Source: Maribellus sediminis (lineage in GTDB: Bacteria; Bacteroidota; Bacteroidia; Bacteroidales; Prolixibacteraceae). From it: DNA of 64,000 bases. Below the pieces are notes generated by a model. It was not told where the DNA came from, ran no database searches, and saw nothing but the letters and a program-made list of their open reading frames with translations. The stretch is taken from NCBI RefSeq assembly GCF_011799805.1, contig NZ_WXUB01000001.1, positions 868,001 to 932,000 of the forward strand. Direction: 5' to 3'. Of the stretch, positions 30,157-57,210 are shown in pieces. Position numbers and translations under genes: made by a program. Within the stretch, counting starts at the first letter, position 1; every line of letters starts with the position of its first letter.

Positions 30157-31353
30157 TTATTCAACAGTAAAGGGTTGATGCCAACGACTCCAGTCTGACC
30201 AAATATTGTTGTAATTTTTTTGTCGTACCCGGCAAAAATATGTTTCTCCCGAAGTCAATTTAGATTTCTTTTGCAGCATGCCCGAAAAGGTTCCGTTCTC
30301 ACTTGCTATTTTTATGGCTTCCTGTGGTCGTATTTCTTTTGATTGAAATACAATGCTGTTTCCGGAATAGTCCGTTGCAAGTTCTATTTCCCACGCCGAT
30401 AATGAGTCTCGGCCGTGGTAAGGGGTCTTATGGATTACCGGATTTGCCGGACACACAACCGGCCCAATCGCCTGGGTAGAAATCACAAAATTGTCAAACC
30501 AACGATTTTCTGTTTTTATGGCTCCGTCGTTCCAGTAAGCTTCCAGAAAAACTGCATTTATGCCGTGTTCGGTGTAAGTACCTCTCAGGTTCAGGTTGGT
30601 ACGCTCGGCTTCCAGTCGCCCATCAATCCATAGTCGATTCAGCCCGTCGTTTTTCCCCGGTGTGTTAAGCCGTACCATCGATTCTACTAAAACCCAGTAA
30701 CCTGATTCCTCGGTTGAAGATATCTGAAACTCGGAACACGGACTATTCCCCAGCCAATGAAAATTCTTAAAATCGTTATAATGCTGTGTTTTTACTTTTG
30801 CACTTTGTTCATCAACTCCCCGCACAGGATCAAGTGTCAGCGAATTTCCTTCTCCACTCCAAACATGGGCAATCATTGCTTGTCGCCATGATCTGGCTGA
30901 TACGATACTTGTTGCCCGCGACATTTTTGCAGGTGCACCTTCCCAGCCGTATTCGTGTTTCACATATATGCGCCAATAAATTTCATCGAAATGTTCTCCT
31001 GCTCTGAGTACATTTCTGTTTGAGGGAAAATCGCCAAATGCAACTTTGCGATTTCCTTTCCCCTCAATCATGTCTTTTTCAAATCCGGCTTCCATCGATC
31101 CACCGGTAATTCCAAACTTTACTTCGTAATCGATTTTTCCTGAAGACTCCAGGTACGCTTTTTCGAGTCTAAAATCATCATACCAAATAACATCAGGATT
31201 TGATTCGTGAGGCTGCACAGCCGACATCTCAATGAAATCGATATGCGGAGTTTCCACAACGGTTGATACGCCGGATAGTGGTTGATTATTGTCCGCAACG
31301 TGAATGGTTATTAAAGTGATTATCAGTAAGAAAGTATTTGTGCTAATTGGCAT
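30157..31353 (-). CDS. Secreted polysaccharide-lyase-like protein with C-terminal Ig/FnIII-like domain
   Basis: 398 residues with a short hydrophobic leader. The middle (about 60-290) looks like a concanavalin-type jelly roll of the kind seen in secreted lyases and lectins: IYWRIYVKHEYGWEGAPAKMSRATS, MIAHVWSGEGNSLTL, GYWVLVESMVRLNTPGKNDG, NRLWIDGRLEAE. The C-terminal ~90 residues form an Ig- or fibronectin-like module (VCPANPVIH, TYFCRVRQKNYNNIWSDWSRW). No enzyme family was assigned with confidence. Its 3' end faces the kinase gene (15-base gap, convergent). Confidence 0.5.
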   Translation of the reverse strand: MPISTNTFLLIITLITIHVADNNQPLSGVSTVVETPHIDFIEMSAVQPHESNPDVIWYDDFRLEKAYLESSGKIDYEVKFGITGGSMEAGFEKDMIEGKGNRKVAFGDFPSNRNVLRAGEHFDEIYWRIYVKHEYGWEGAPAKMSRATSIVSARSWRQAMIAHVWSGEGNSLTLDPVRGVDEQSAKVKTQHYNDFKNFHWLGNSPCSEFQISSTEESGYWVLVESMVRLNTPGKNDGLNRLWIDGRLEAERTNLNLRGTYTEHGINAVFLEAYWNDGAIKTENRWFDNFVISTQAIGPVVCPANPVIHKTPYHGRDSLSAWEIELATDYSGNSIVFQSKEIRPQEAIKIASENGTFSGMLQKKSKLTSGETYFCRVRQKNYNNIWSDWSRWHQPFTVE

Positions 31354-31411
31354 AAGTGGTATTTTTGGCGATTTTAAAGTTATTTAAATTTAGTAACTCG
31401 CAATAAAAAAA

Positions 31412-54404: not shown

Positions 54405-54562
54405 TTCTTTTTTAAAAGATTGGCGTACCTTCTGCTTTTCAGTCGGCAAGACATCTGTTCGGATGAATGCTTTTTTACTTTTAAGTAATTTGAAGTATGT
54501 AGGCAAATTTGATCTTCCCGTATTAAATTAAAGTCCTAAGTGTCTTGTTTCTGGCGAGTTAG

Positions 54563-54593
54563 TTTGCCCGATTGGTGGAATACATTATTTTTG
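54563..54593 (+). promoter_or_regulatory. Promoter of STAS-like gene 1
   Basis: Perfect consensus: TTTG 54563-54566, 19-base spacer, TATTTTTG 54586-54593. CCTAAGTGTCTT lies just upstream and is shared with the second copy. Confidence 0.8.
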
Positions 54594-54633
54594 CGGACAA
54601 TACAGAAGGAAGAAGACACAACATTCGGATTTA

Positions 54634-55029
54634 ATGAAGGAAACAGAGGTTACCAAATATCAGGTTGGTGGCGACACGATGTATATTCGTGAAGGCAATG
54701 TTATACATGTTGTCGTCGTAGGGTACCAGAGCCATGAATTTGCGTTGAAGGTGAAGGAGAAATGCAGTGAGCTCGCTAATCAAATTGAAGGGATGCACCA
54801 TTACCTGATCGATTTAAATAAGTGCGGAAAAAATGATGCCGCTGCAAGGAAAGTTTGGAAAGAACTTAGTCGTGATGTCAGAACAAATAAGGTGGCAACT
54901 TTTGGAATGAACCCGGTTTCAAGGGTGATTGCGAATTTTGTAATTGGTACATACGAAGGAAAAAATATTCGCTTTTTTAAACATGAAAAAGATGCCTTAA
55001 AGTGGTTGAAGGAAGAAGATAAGGATTAA
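54634..55029 (+). CDS. STAS/SpoIIAA-like protein 1
   Basis: 131 residues, cytosolic. Strand/helix order resembles a STAS or SpoIIAA-like domain: YIREGNVIHVVVVGYQSHEF, HHYLIDLNKCGKND, KVATFGMNPVSRVIANFVIG, and the C-terminal EKDALKWLKEE helix that is typical of SpoIIAA-like proteins. Shares with its neighbour the near-invariant blocks CGKNDxAAR, TNKVATFGMNP and RVIANFVIGTY. Such domains usually act by binding a kinase or partner. It probably has a separate transcript, because the second copy has its own promoter. Confidence 0.7.
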   Translation: MKETEVTKYQVGGDTMYIREGNVIHVVVVGYQSHEFALKVKEKCSELANQIEGMHHYLIDLNKCGKNDAAARKVWKELSRDVRTNKVATFGMNPVSRVIANFVIGTYEGKNIRFFKHEKDALKWLKEEDKD

Positions 55030-55323
55030 TTAGAGGCAGGTGCAACGAATATTTTAAACCCGCGCATTACGGGATAACTATATAAATTTAAGATCGGTTT
55101 TAACCTGTTTGTATTGGTAAAATTTCCTTGTAATCGCCACTAAAAATTTTTTAAAATCCACGTAATGATTGCTTGAACTGCGCTCTTTTAATTTTAATGT
55201 GACTTCATTTCTATTCCATATTTTCTTAATGATAACTCAAGTTAAAAGGTTTGAAGAAGCTTATCAGGTTTGAATTTTAAATATTAAATTAAACACCTAA
55301 GTGTCTTATTCTGGTTGGGTTAG

Positions 55324-55354
55324 TTTGGTGAAATGAGGGAATAAATTATTTTTG
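55324..55354 (+). promoter_or_regulatory. Promoter of STAS-like gene 2 and the hybrid kinase
   Basis: Perfect consensus: TTTG 55324-55327, 19-base spacer, TATTTTTG 55347-55354; preceded by CCTAAGTGTCTT as in copy 1. Confidence 0.8.
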
Positions 55355-55398
55355 CTGTCAATACAGAAGGAAAAGGACGAGACATTCGAGATTTTATT

Positions 55399-55791
55399 AT
55401 GAATAGAGAAATTTCTCAATATCATATAGGTAACAATACCTATACGATTCGTGAGGGCAATATTATACATATTGTCACGCATGGAGATTTTCCCGTTGAA
55501 TTGGCGTTGGAAATAAAGAATTTCTGCCTCGCACAAGCCGGTAAAATGGATGGGAAATGCAGTTACCTGGTAGATTTAACCAACTGCGGAAAAAACGATC
55601 CTGCTGCCAGAGAGATTTGGAAGGAAATTAGCAACGATGCAAGTACAAATAAGGTTGCAACTTTCGGAATGAATCCGGTTGCAAGGGTGATTGCAAATTT
55701 TGTGATTGGCACTTACGGCGGGGTAAATATGCGTTTGTTTAGAAATGAGAAGGATGCACTTGCTTGGATATTAGAAGGAGAAGATCAGTAA
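55399..55791 (+). CDS. STAS/SpoIIAA-like protein 2
   Basis: 130 residues, paralogue of the preceding protein with roughly half its residues identical. Conserved blocks: CGKNDPAAREIWKEI, TNKVATFGMNPVARVIANF and EKDALAWI; the N-terminal strand is YTIREGNIIHIV. The stop codon is 3 bases before the hybrid kinase ATG, so the two are translationally linked. It is likely the direct partner or input module of that kinase (inference from coupling). Confidence 0.72.
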   Translation: MNREISQYHIGNNTYTIREGNIIHIVTHGDFPVELALEIKNFCLAQAGKMDGKCSYLVDLTNCGKNDPAAREIWKEISNDASTNKVATFGMNPVARVIANFVIGTYGGVNMRLFRNEKDALAWILEGEDQ

Positions 55792-55794
55792 TTA

Positions 55795-57210
55795 ATGACG
55801 AACAAAATTAACCAGGATAGGATAGAAGCAATAACTGAGGCGATCATTAAAGTTGCACGTGGCGATTTTTCTGTGCAGGTCCCGGTTACGGATAAATATG
55901 ATCATATTGATGCCCTGGCCATGGGGATTAATATGATGATCGACGACCTGAAACTGAAGGAAGAAACAGATAAGGAAAACGAGCAAATTAAACTCTTAAA
56001 CAAAGAACTCGAGGAAGCAAAATTAAAGGCCGAAGAAAGCGAGCGCCTGAAAATGGCATTTCTGGCAAATATGAGCCACGAGATACGCACCCCGATGAAC
56101 GGGATTCTTGGTTTTGCCGATCTCCTGAAAAGTCATGTCCTGCCTGAAGAAAAGAAGTTGGAGTTTATCGGGCTCATCGAAAAGAGCGGAAATCGTATGC
56201 TGGATATTATTAACGACATTGTTGATATTTCGAGGATCGAATCGAAGCTTGTTACAAAAAATATCAGCACGGTTAACATTAACGATTTACTGGAACAACA
56301 ATACAAATTTTTTAAACCCCGTGCTAAACAAAAAGAACTAAAGCTTTCTCTGCACAAAGGTTTACCGGATGAGAATTCGGTATTGGAAACCGATGGTCAG
56401 AAGTTAAATGCAGTGCTTATTAACCTAGTAAATAACGCGATTAAATATACCAAAACAGGACAGGTTGAGTTTGGCTATGCTATCAGGCAAAACGATGGCC
56501 AAACGAAATTAGAATTCTATGTCCGCGATACCGGTATTGGTATTTCAAAAGAGGATCAGGCACTAATTTTTGATCGCTTTACGAGAAGCAAAAAAGCCGA
56601 TATGGATGCCATTGAAGGTACCGGTCTTGGCCTGGCAATCAGTAAAGCTTATGTTGAAATTCTTGACGGAAAAATCTGGGTGGAAAGTGTCGAAGGAGAA
56701 GGTTCTGTTTTCTATTTCGATGTGCCTGTGACTGAAGATAGCAAAATGTATCAGGCAGTTAGACAGGTAGATAAAACTGACGTTGCAACTATTGATTGTG
56801 CCGGCAAAAAGATCCTTGTCGTTGAAGATGATCCCGTTTCGGGATACTTCCTGAAAATCGCACTACAGGGGCTGTCGAATAATATTCTTGTTGCGCGCGA
56901 CGGGCAGGAAGCTGTAGATATGTTTATGGATAATCCGGATCTCTGCCTTATTCTAATGGACATTTCTCTGCCGAGAATGCGTGGAGATGAAGCCGTTAAA
57001 ATTATCCGGAAAACAAATACAGAAATACCCATTATTGCCCAAACGGCCTATTGCATGGAAGGAGATAAAGAGCACCTTAAAGCAATTGGTTGTAATGATT
57101 ACCTGGGAAAGCCCGTTAAAATGGATTTATTACTGAAAACGGTGCAGAATTATATGGAAAGAGGTTGCACACGGTGTTTAAAATACAAGAGCTCTAACGT
57201 TGAGAAATAG
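55795..57210 (+). CDS. Soluble HAMP-containing hybrid histidine kinase
   Basis: 471 residues with no transmembrane helix. N-terminal ~60 residues resemble a HAMP domain (VARGDFSVQVPVTDKYDHIDAL, then INMMIDDLK) running into a coiled coil. HisKA follows with the acceptor His in ANMSHEIRTPMNGILGF, HATPase (N box VLINLVNNAIKYT, DTGIGIS, GTGLGL), and a C-terminal receiver domain (VVEDDPVSG, phospho-Asp in LILMDISLPRMRG, Lys in GKPVKM). Because no sensor domain is present, the co-transcribed STAS-like protein may supply the signal. No DNA-binding output is linked. Confidence 0.88.
   Translation: MTNKINQDRIEAITEAIIKVARGDFSVQVPVTDKYDHIDALAMGINMMIDDLKLKEETDKENEQIKLLNKELEEAKLKAEESERLKMAFLANMSHEIRTPMNGILGFADLLKSHVLPEEKKLEFIGLIEKSGNRMLDIINDIVDISRIESKLVTKNISTVNINDLLEQQYKFFKPRAKQKELKLSLHKGLPDENSVLETDGQKLNAVLINLVNNAIKYTKTGQVEFGYAIRQNDGQTKLEFYVRDTGIGISKEDQALIFDRFTRSKKADMDAIEGTGLGLAISKAYVEILDGKIWVESVEGEGSVFYFDVPVTEDSKMYQAVRQVDKTDVATIDCAGKKILVVEDDPVSGYFLKIALQGLSNNILVARDGQEAVDMFMDNPDLCLILMDISLPRMRGDEAVKIIRKTNTEIPIIAQTAYCMEGDKEHLKAIGCNDYLGKPVKMDLLLKTVQNYMERGCTRCLKYKSSNVEK

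Follow-up and report, generated by a model that had tools for sequence, protein, structure and literature searches.

Genes for predicted STAS-fold proteins lie directly upstream of genes for cytosolic HAMP-like proteins with varied outputs

The subject of this work is a three-gene locus of Maribellus sediminis, in which two small related proteins, S1 and S2, are encoded ahead of a histidine kinase that carries an N-terminal HAMP domain. The locus lies in a 64,000-nucleotide stretch of the genome (contig NZ_WXUB01000001.1, positions 868,001 to 932,000 of the forward strand), which we call the window throughout. We found that the S gene stands directly upstream of a gene for a cytosolic HAMP-like protein, with the HAMP usually N-terminal, in many lineages and in front of many different outputs. 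HAMP domains are relays for signals from a membrane sensor or from a sensor within the same chain. Judging from the conserved gene order and domain content, we consider it reasonably probable that S and HAMP together form an input unit that can be detached, the STAS-like protein taking the place of the membrane sensor and determining the state of the HAMP domain.

Results

The locus and its protein families

The coding features of the locus, numbered from the first letter of the window, are as follows.

54634-55029, + strand: S1, a DUF7793 protein of 131 residues with a predicted STAS fold (PF25056, 34.1 bits)
55399-55791, + strand: S2, a DUF7793 protein of 130 residues with a predicted STAS fold (PF25056, 28.5 bits; AlphaFold2 model and Foldseek)
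55795-57210, + strand: soluble hybrid histidine kinase of 471 residues, HAMP-HisKA-HATPase_c-REC (Pfam; no membrane helix)
55819-55950, + strand: N-terminal HAMP domain of the kinase, residues 9-52 (Pfam, 21.4 bits against a cut-off of 25; model match to Af1503 HAMP)
56053-56244, + strand: HisKA domain of the kinase, with the phospho-acceptor His95 in SHEIRTP (Pfam, alignment)
56392-56733, + strand: HATPase_c domain of the kinase (Pfam)
56812-57144, + strand: receiver domain (REC) of the kinase, with the invariant Asp389 (Pfam, alignment)

Both S proteins score above the cut-off of 26 bits for the Pfam family DUF7793, and S2 also reaches 23.7 bits against the SpoIIAA-like family PF11964, just under the cut-off of 25. 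The AlphaFold2 model of S2 (predicted local distance difference test score, pLDDT, 89.4; predicted template modelling score, pTM, 0.83) was compared with the PDB using Foldseek. We assign S2 to the STAS fold because this model matches structures of SpoIIAA-like proteins, SpoIIAA and RsbS (probability 1.00, best E value 7.7e-6); the ten matches at E ≤0.001 include 2q3l, which ranks first, SpoIIAB-SpoIIAA complexes and RsbS. By sequence profile, the nearest solved relative is 3bl4 (E 1.7e-9). In the tree, S1 and S2 group as sisters (support 95/91), pointing to a duplication particular to the window pair. The preliminary description of this DNA, made from its letters and open reading frames, had named two paralogous STAS-like proteins in tandem, and the DUF7793 matches, the model and the tree all bear this out. 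It had also placed S2 three bases from the kinase, and this is indeed the spacing between the S2 stop codon and the kinase ATG, with all three genes on the + strand.

The HisKA, HATPase_c and Response_reg domains of the kinase are well over their Pfam cut-offs, the HAMP domain alone being sub-threshold. A model of kinase residues 1-82 (pLDDT 90, pTM 0.65) has the Af1503 HAMP structures as its best match, with a probability of 1.00 and a weak E value of 0.049, no match reaching 0.001. The phospho-acceptor histidine and the receiver aspartate are invariant in nine aligned kinases, the window kinase included, so that all the parts of a HAMP hybrid histidine kinase (HAMP, HisKA histidine, HATPase_c and REC aspartate) are present. 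The transmembrane sensor that usually precedes a HAMP domain is missing: the HAMP begins at residue 9, and the highest 19-residue Kyte-Doolittle mean, 1.03, indicates no membrane helix. The soluble HAMP-HisKA-HATPase-REC kinase that had been proposed is thus what we find, with a HAMP that is modelled although it falls below the Pfam cut-off.

Conservation of the S-HAMP pairing

With S2 as the query, we obtained matches in 10 of 140 family genomes, and a profile of the HAMP N-terminus matched 18 of the 140 at E 1e-4. The ten HAMP-profile matches of 114-134 bits fall in exactly the 10 genomes with S, the remainder reaching at most 31 bits, and the S and HAMP genes are adjacent in all ten. Genomes G037 and G066 have window neighbours in common (a GH36 gene and yaaA, by BLAST), and G131/G127/G128 and G040/G036 present two further gene contexts, judged by eye.

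Searches for S alone matched 3 of 395 genomes of the phylum, 7 of 295 of the order and 20 loci of a named genome collection, where a single-sequence search confirmed none and an alignment-based search gave the 20. Pfam DUF7793 was found in 19 of the 395 phylum genomes, at 24 places. Once repeats were removed (six of the 20 named-collection loci repeat G030, G040, G127, G098, G789 and G545), 51 distinct S sites were left, of which 10 come from the family, 8 from the phylum and order, 14 from the named collection and 19 from Pfam DUF7793. A HAMP-like gene lies downstream at 43 of these 51 sites, one of them (L077) across an assembly gap. The HAMP profile used for these neighbourhood calls was built from family loci only, and the loci outside the family are therefore independent of it. 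Neighbourhoods of S homologues had been suggested at the outset as the place to look for HAMP hybrid kinases, and with 43 sites paired the possibility that the two never co-occur falls away.

The search from the HAMP side gives a similar picture. Nine of the 295 order genomes matched at E 1e-7, and all six at 56 bits or above have S upstream, including three (G661, G547 and G756) that are absent from the HAMP profile. Membrane helices are absent from 34 of the 35 HAMP partners tested (of 43). The gap between the S and HAMP genes, taken at 39 sites, ranges from -16 to 100 bases with a median of 15; the first G207 site, L071, L072 and L077 were left out of this set, the start of the partner or the end of S being uncertain. 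Because the reading frame is kept across 15 of the 39 gaps, about a third, there is no sign of split fusions. One candidate fusion, S-HAMP-SpoIIE at L077, was rejected, as its frame crosses the assembly gap (X) and its second part has a membrane helix. A viral origin was likewise rejected, as two IMG/VR scans confirmed no relative.

Of the 43 sites with a HAMP gene, 9 carry at least two S genes (the window, G098, L061, L068, L070, L073, L078, G299 and G382). They flank the HAMP gene on both sides in G098, while in G382 the S that our search detected stands ahead of another S-like gene with 33% identity to it, and the HAMP kinase comes next.

Several loci with more than one STAS-like gene have features of their own. 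Four successive S paralogues precede one HAMP-PAS kinase in L078 (4734-8107), with lone receiver domains on both flanks. In both L017 (3720-4112) and L019 (8061-8453) the kinase is followed by a second SpoIIAA-like protein; that of L017 matches PF11964 weakly, at 19.3 bits, and that of L019 resembles it by eye. A kinase gene can thus have STAS-like proteins on either side. In L020 (3517-3957), two S genes enclose the gene for a 147-residue protein that consists of HAMP and coiled coil and has no output domain. The two-S HAMP kinase of L061, about 48% identical to the window kinase, is on a contig binned as Methanosarcina that may be mis-binned or transferred; Methanosarcina and Thermoplasmatota are here labels of metagenome bins, which may be in error.

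Outputs behind the HAMP

What follows the HAMP domain varies from site to site. It is a hybrid kinase in the window, L060 and L073, a kinase with PAS or with PAS and GAF in L036, L038, L068, L069 and L078, a kinase with two receivers and Hpt in L039, a short kinase in L070, L079 and L089, and a PAS protein without a kinase in L033. At ten sites (L080-L087, L099 and L100) the partner has an AraC-type helix-turn-helix with a PAS-like middle; three of these partners were checked with Pfam, and all ten have a HAMP by our profile at E 1e-6 or better. In L034 and L035 the S gene is followed by genes for an RsbR-like STAS protein, RsbS, RsbT, a SpoIIE-HATPase phosphatase and a hybrid kinase, the RsbS of L035 matching that of B. 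subtilis (6jhk) at E 2.3e-30. A SpoIIE-HATPase_c_2 output would be added by L077, but only across the assembly gap and with a membrane helix.

Two of these settings deserve a separate description. A canonical DUF7793 gene precedes the HAMP-PAS-AraC type regulator in L083 (1459-2768), with nine similar sites, and by eye the AraC-type sites repeatedly have a gene for a small membrane protein and a divergent gene beside them. In L015 (4003-11969; genome G030, same contig as L062) an S-HAMP kinase pair stands directly behind gas-vesicle genes, comprising four matches to GvpF/L, a sub-threshold GvpO-like gene and an AAA ATPase. A lone receiver and another kinase come after the pair. This S-HAMP pair may control buoyancy.

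The putative switch residue of S

Two codons of the window specify the residue aligned with Ser58, the phospho-serine of SpoIIAA.

54835-54837, + strand: S1 Asp68, at the SpoIIAA Ser58-equivalent position (alignment)
55597-55599, + strand: S2 Asp67, at the SpoIIAA Ser58-equivalent position

According to PMC2954212, Ser58 corresponds to Asp66 in 2ook and to Ser66 in 2q3l, and most members of the 2q3l/2ook family have Glu or Asp there, with a possible loss of SpoIIAA function. Profile alignment places this switch site at S2 residue 67, with a one-residue tag offset that is our own count. Across 29 aligned S proteins, column 67 holds Ser in 24, Thr in one, Asp in two, His in one and Pro in one, and both Asp belong to S1 and S2, which have no phosphorylatable Ser or Thr at the start of helix 2. 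The nearest relatives, in G037 and G066 and outside the 29-sequence set, have Glu. The hhalign comparison of S with RsbS is weak (probability 1.2), and its register is shifted by one residue from the structure-based alignment. Helix 2 of the S2 model begins at residue 68, next to the switch site, and Ser, Thr and Asp are ordinary helix caps. The window clade has thus lost the switch-site hydroxyl, and its acidic residue may be a fixed phospho-mimic or may serve only to cap helix 2.

Discussion

A possible mechanism and its rivals

We propose that S would bind the HAMP domain, or the free N-terminal helix of the HAMP, within the kinase dimer, and would stand in for the transmembrane sensor that normally drives it. 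The state of S would then determine the conformation of the HAMP and, through it, the relative strength of kinase and phosphatase activity. Phosphate would pass from His95 to Asp389 and from there to an unlinked Hpt protein or response regulator. S might sense either through the N-terminus of helix 2, where SpoIIAA has its phospho-serine, or through a surface that meets nonpolar ligands or the membrane, and duplicated S copies could give one kinase alternative or mixed inputs. SpoIIAA-like proteins have been proposed to open, with helices 2 and 3 becoming exposed, and to associate with lipid (PMC2954212), which by analogy suggests that the signal of S could be the state of the membrane or of a nonpolar ligand.

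The strongest argument for this reading is that S and HAMP remain constant while the output is exchangeable, and S is therefore better placed as an input than as an output. STAS proteins are often outputs of phosphatases, and S could in principle be the target of the pathway, an anti-anti-sigma-like or carrier protein that merely shares the operon. Such a role would agree with the proposal that SpoIIAA-like proteins carry nonpolar molecules (PMC2954212), but the complete change of enzymatic output behind a constant S and HAMP leaves it quite improbable.

Classical partner switching, in which an RsbW/RsbT-like kinase acting in trans and a PP2C phosphatase toggle the helix-2 serine of S and only one form engages the HAMP protein, the window clade holding a fixed acidic mimic, seems to us unlikely. 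The Ser or Thr in 25 of the 29 aligned S proteins speaks for it, as do the two S loci within rsbRST operons and the HATPase_c_2 matches (PF13581) in all 12 genomes tested, among them that of the window. However, PF13581 also matches 12 of 14 control genomes, and its presence therefore says little. Both window copies have Asp and those of G037 and G066 have Glu, in line with the acidic residue of most 2q3l/2ook relatives, and both the off-by-one register against RsbS and the position of the site beside the start of helix 2, where the residue could be an ordinary cap, count against a switch. Moreover, a Pfam scan of ten neighbouring proteins at 49.6-64 kb of the window (TPR/cytochrome, GH36, ZIP, DUF302, YaaA, DUF3127, two FKBPs, an FtsX permease and a GAPDH piece) found no HATPase_c_2 serine kinase, no PP2C/SpoIIE domain, and no RsbR, RsbS, RsbT or RsbX. 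The same scan bears on a further alternative, in which S proteins assemble with other STAS proteins into a stressosome-like scaffold, to which the HAMP kinase would dock as one reader among several. Although L034 and L035 have the S gene ahead of those for RsbR-like, RsbS and RsbT proteins, and sites with two or more S genes would suit such an assembly, the window neighbours offer no RsbR/RsbS-type STAS partner, and in L034 and L035 an RsbS is already encoded beside the S gene; we regard the scaffold as less likely still than partner switching. A partner-switching or stressosome-like input had been put forward in the preliminary description. What survives of it is the conserved S-HAMP unit and the stressosome link of L034 and L035, whereas partner switching at the window itself finds no serine kinase or PP2C among the ten neighbours scanned and an Asp at the switch site.

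Several observations weigh against S as the detached sensor of a HAMP. No HAMP neighbour was seen at 8 of the 51 S sites (L074, G261, G277, G184 twice, G172, G259 and G393), where about 1.5 kb was read on each side, or about 5-6 kb for L074. Conversely, three of the nine matches in the order genomes, at 37-40 bits, are soluble HAMP kinases with no S gene upstream. We found no genuine fusion of S and HAMP genes, and the HAMP of L068 is preceded by about 150 other residues and is not N-terminal. The HAMP of the RsbR-like partners is called by our profile only (E 6e-6 and 9e-7 in a small set), Pfam HAMP and the order-wide HAMP profile scan reporting none.

Relation to known systems

The S-HAMP pair may be a variant of STAS-based signalling, somewhat like the link of the stressosome to two-component outputs. 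As in the Vibrio-type stressosome, RsbR-RsbS-RsbT(-X) with its two-component links (PMC9237108), STAS-fold proteins are tied to two-component outputs, and the gene order of L034 and L035 reinforces the likeness. The window differs in that S is paired directly with a HAMP kinase and is a DUF7793/SpoIIAA-like protein, not RsbS, and in the lack of Rsb proteins among the scanned neighbours. With the antagonists SpoIIAA and RsbV, S shares the STAS fold, but it has Asp in place of the phospho-serine and adjoins a HAMP kinase, not an anti-sigma kinase. The nearest solved relatives of S are 2q3l, 2ook and 3bl4, among which 2ook likewise has Asp at the Ser58 position; the available portion of the paper on 2q3l and 2ook (PMC2954212) proposes membrane association and a nonpolar cargo and makes no mention of a HAMP partner.

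Aer2 offers another comparison, as its HAMP domains are among the Foldseek matches of the kinase 1-82 model and likewise belong to a cytosolic protein. Aer2, however, carries its own sensor within the same chain, whereas here the sole candidate sensor is a separate small protein. The open-licence literature, which misses most subscription journals, yielded no description of the S-HAMP pairing, and the term DUF7793 occurs in no paper of that literature searched.

Going beyond the window, we see as evenly balanced the wider proposal that a DUF7793/SpoIIAA-like STAS protein and a soluble HAMP make up a general two-protein input module, in which a detached cytosolic sensor would drive HAMP in trans. 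In Bacteroidota, Spirochaetota and archaea-binned contigs it would be mounted on histidine kinases, on the RsbR-like proteins of stressosomes, on AraC-type regulators and perhaps on PP2C phosphatases, and tandem copies of the sensor would compete for one HAMP. If true, HAMP can be driven in trans by a separate partner protein, DUF7793 gains a testable role, and one input unit has been swapped among two-component, stressosome and transcription-factor outputs.

Promoters and the tandem duplication

The upstream regions of S1 and S2 contain the following features.

54521-54995, + strand: first copy of the duplication, with the promoter and most of S1 (blastn self-comparison, 72% identity)
54563-54593, + strand: promoter of S1, TTTG-N19-TATTTTTG (pattern search)
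55282-55757, + strand: second copy of the duplication, with the promoter and most of S2 (blastn self-comparison, 72% identity)
55324-55354, + strand: promoter of S2, probably serving the kinase as well, TTTG-N19-TATTTTTG (pattern search; TATTTTTG kept in L013 and L014)

TTTG-N19-TATTTTTG, which we take to be a Bacteroidota-type promoter, is matched three times in the 64-kb window, against 0.07 expected from shuffles. The word CCTAAGTGTCTT stands ahead of each of the two S promoters, at 54535 and 55296. Near-identical promoters and a common upstream word had been reported in the preliminary description, and both are present twice. However, blastn self-comparison of the locus reveals a tandem duplication of about 475 bp that spans promoter and gene at 72% DNA identity, and because it copied the two together the matching promoters are not independent evidence. 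The S1 and S2 promoters are one promoter copied, of an ordinary, inherited kind: the two nearest relatives (L013 and L014) both keep the TATTTTTG -7 box, L013 with the same promoter spacing, and neither has CCTAAGTGTCTT in the 140 bases upstream of its S gene. A shared regulator acting through CCTAAGTGTCTT was considered and rejected, the whole 5.6-Mb genome having exactly two copies of the word, both inside the duplicated segment. The third perfect match to TTTG-N19-TATTTTTG lies elsewhere in the window, at 31337-31367.

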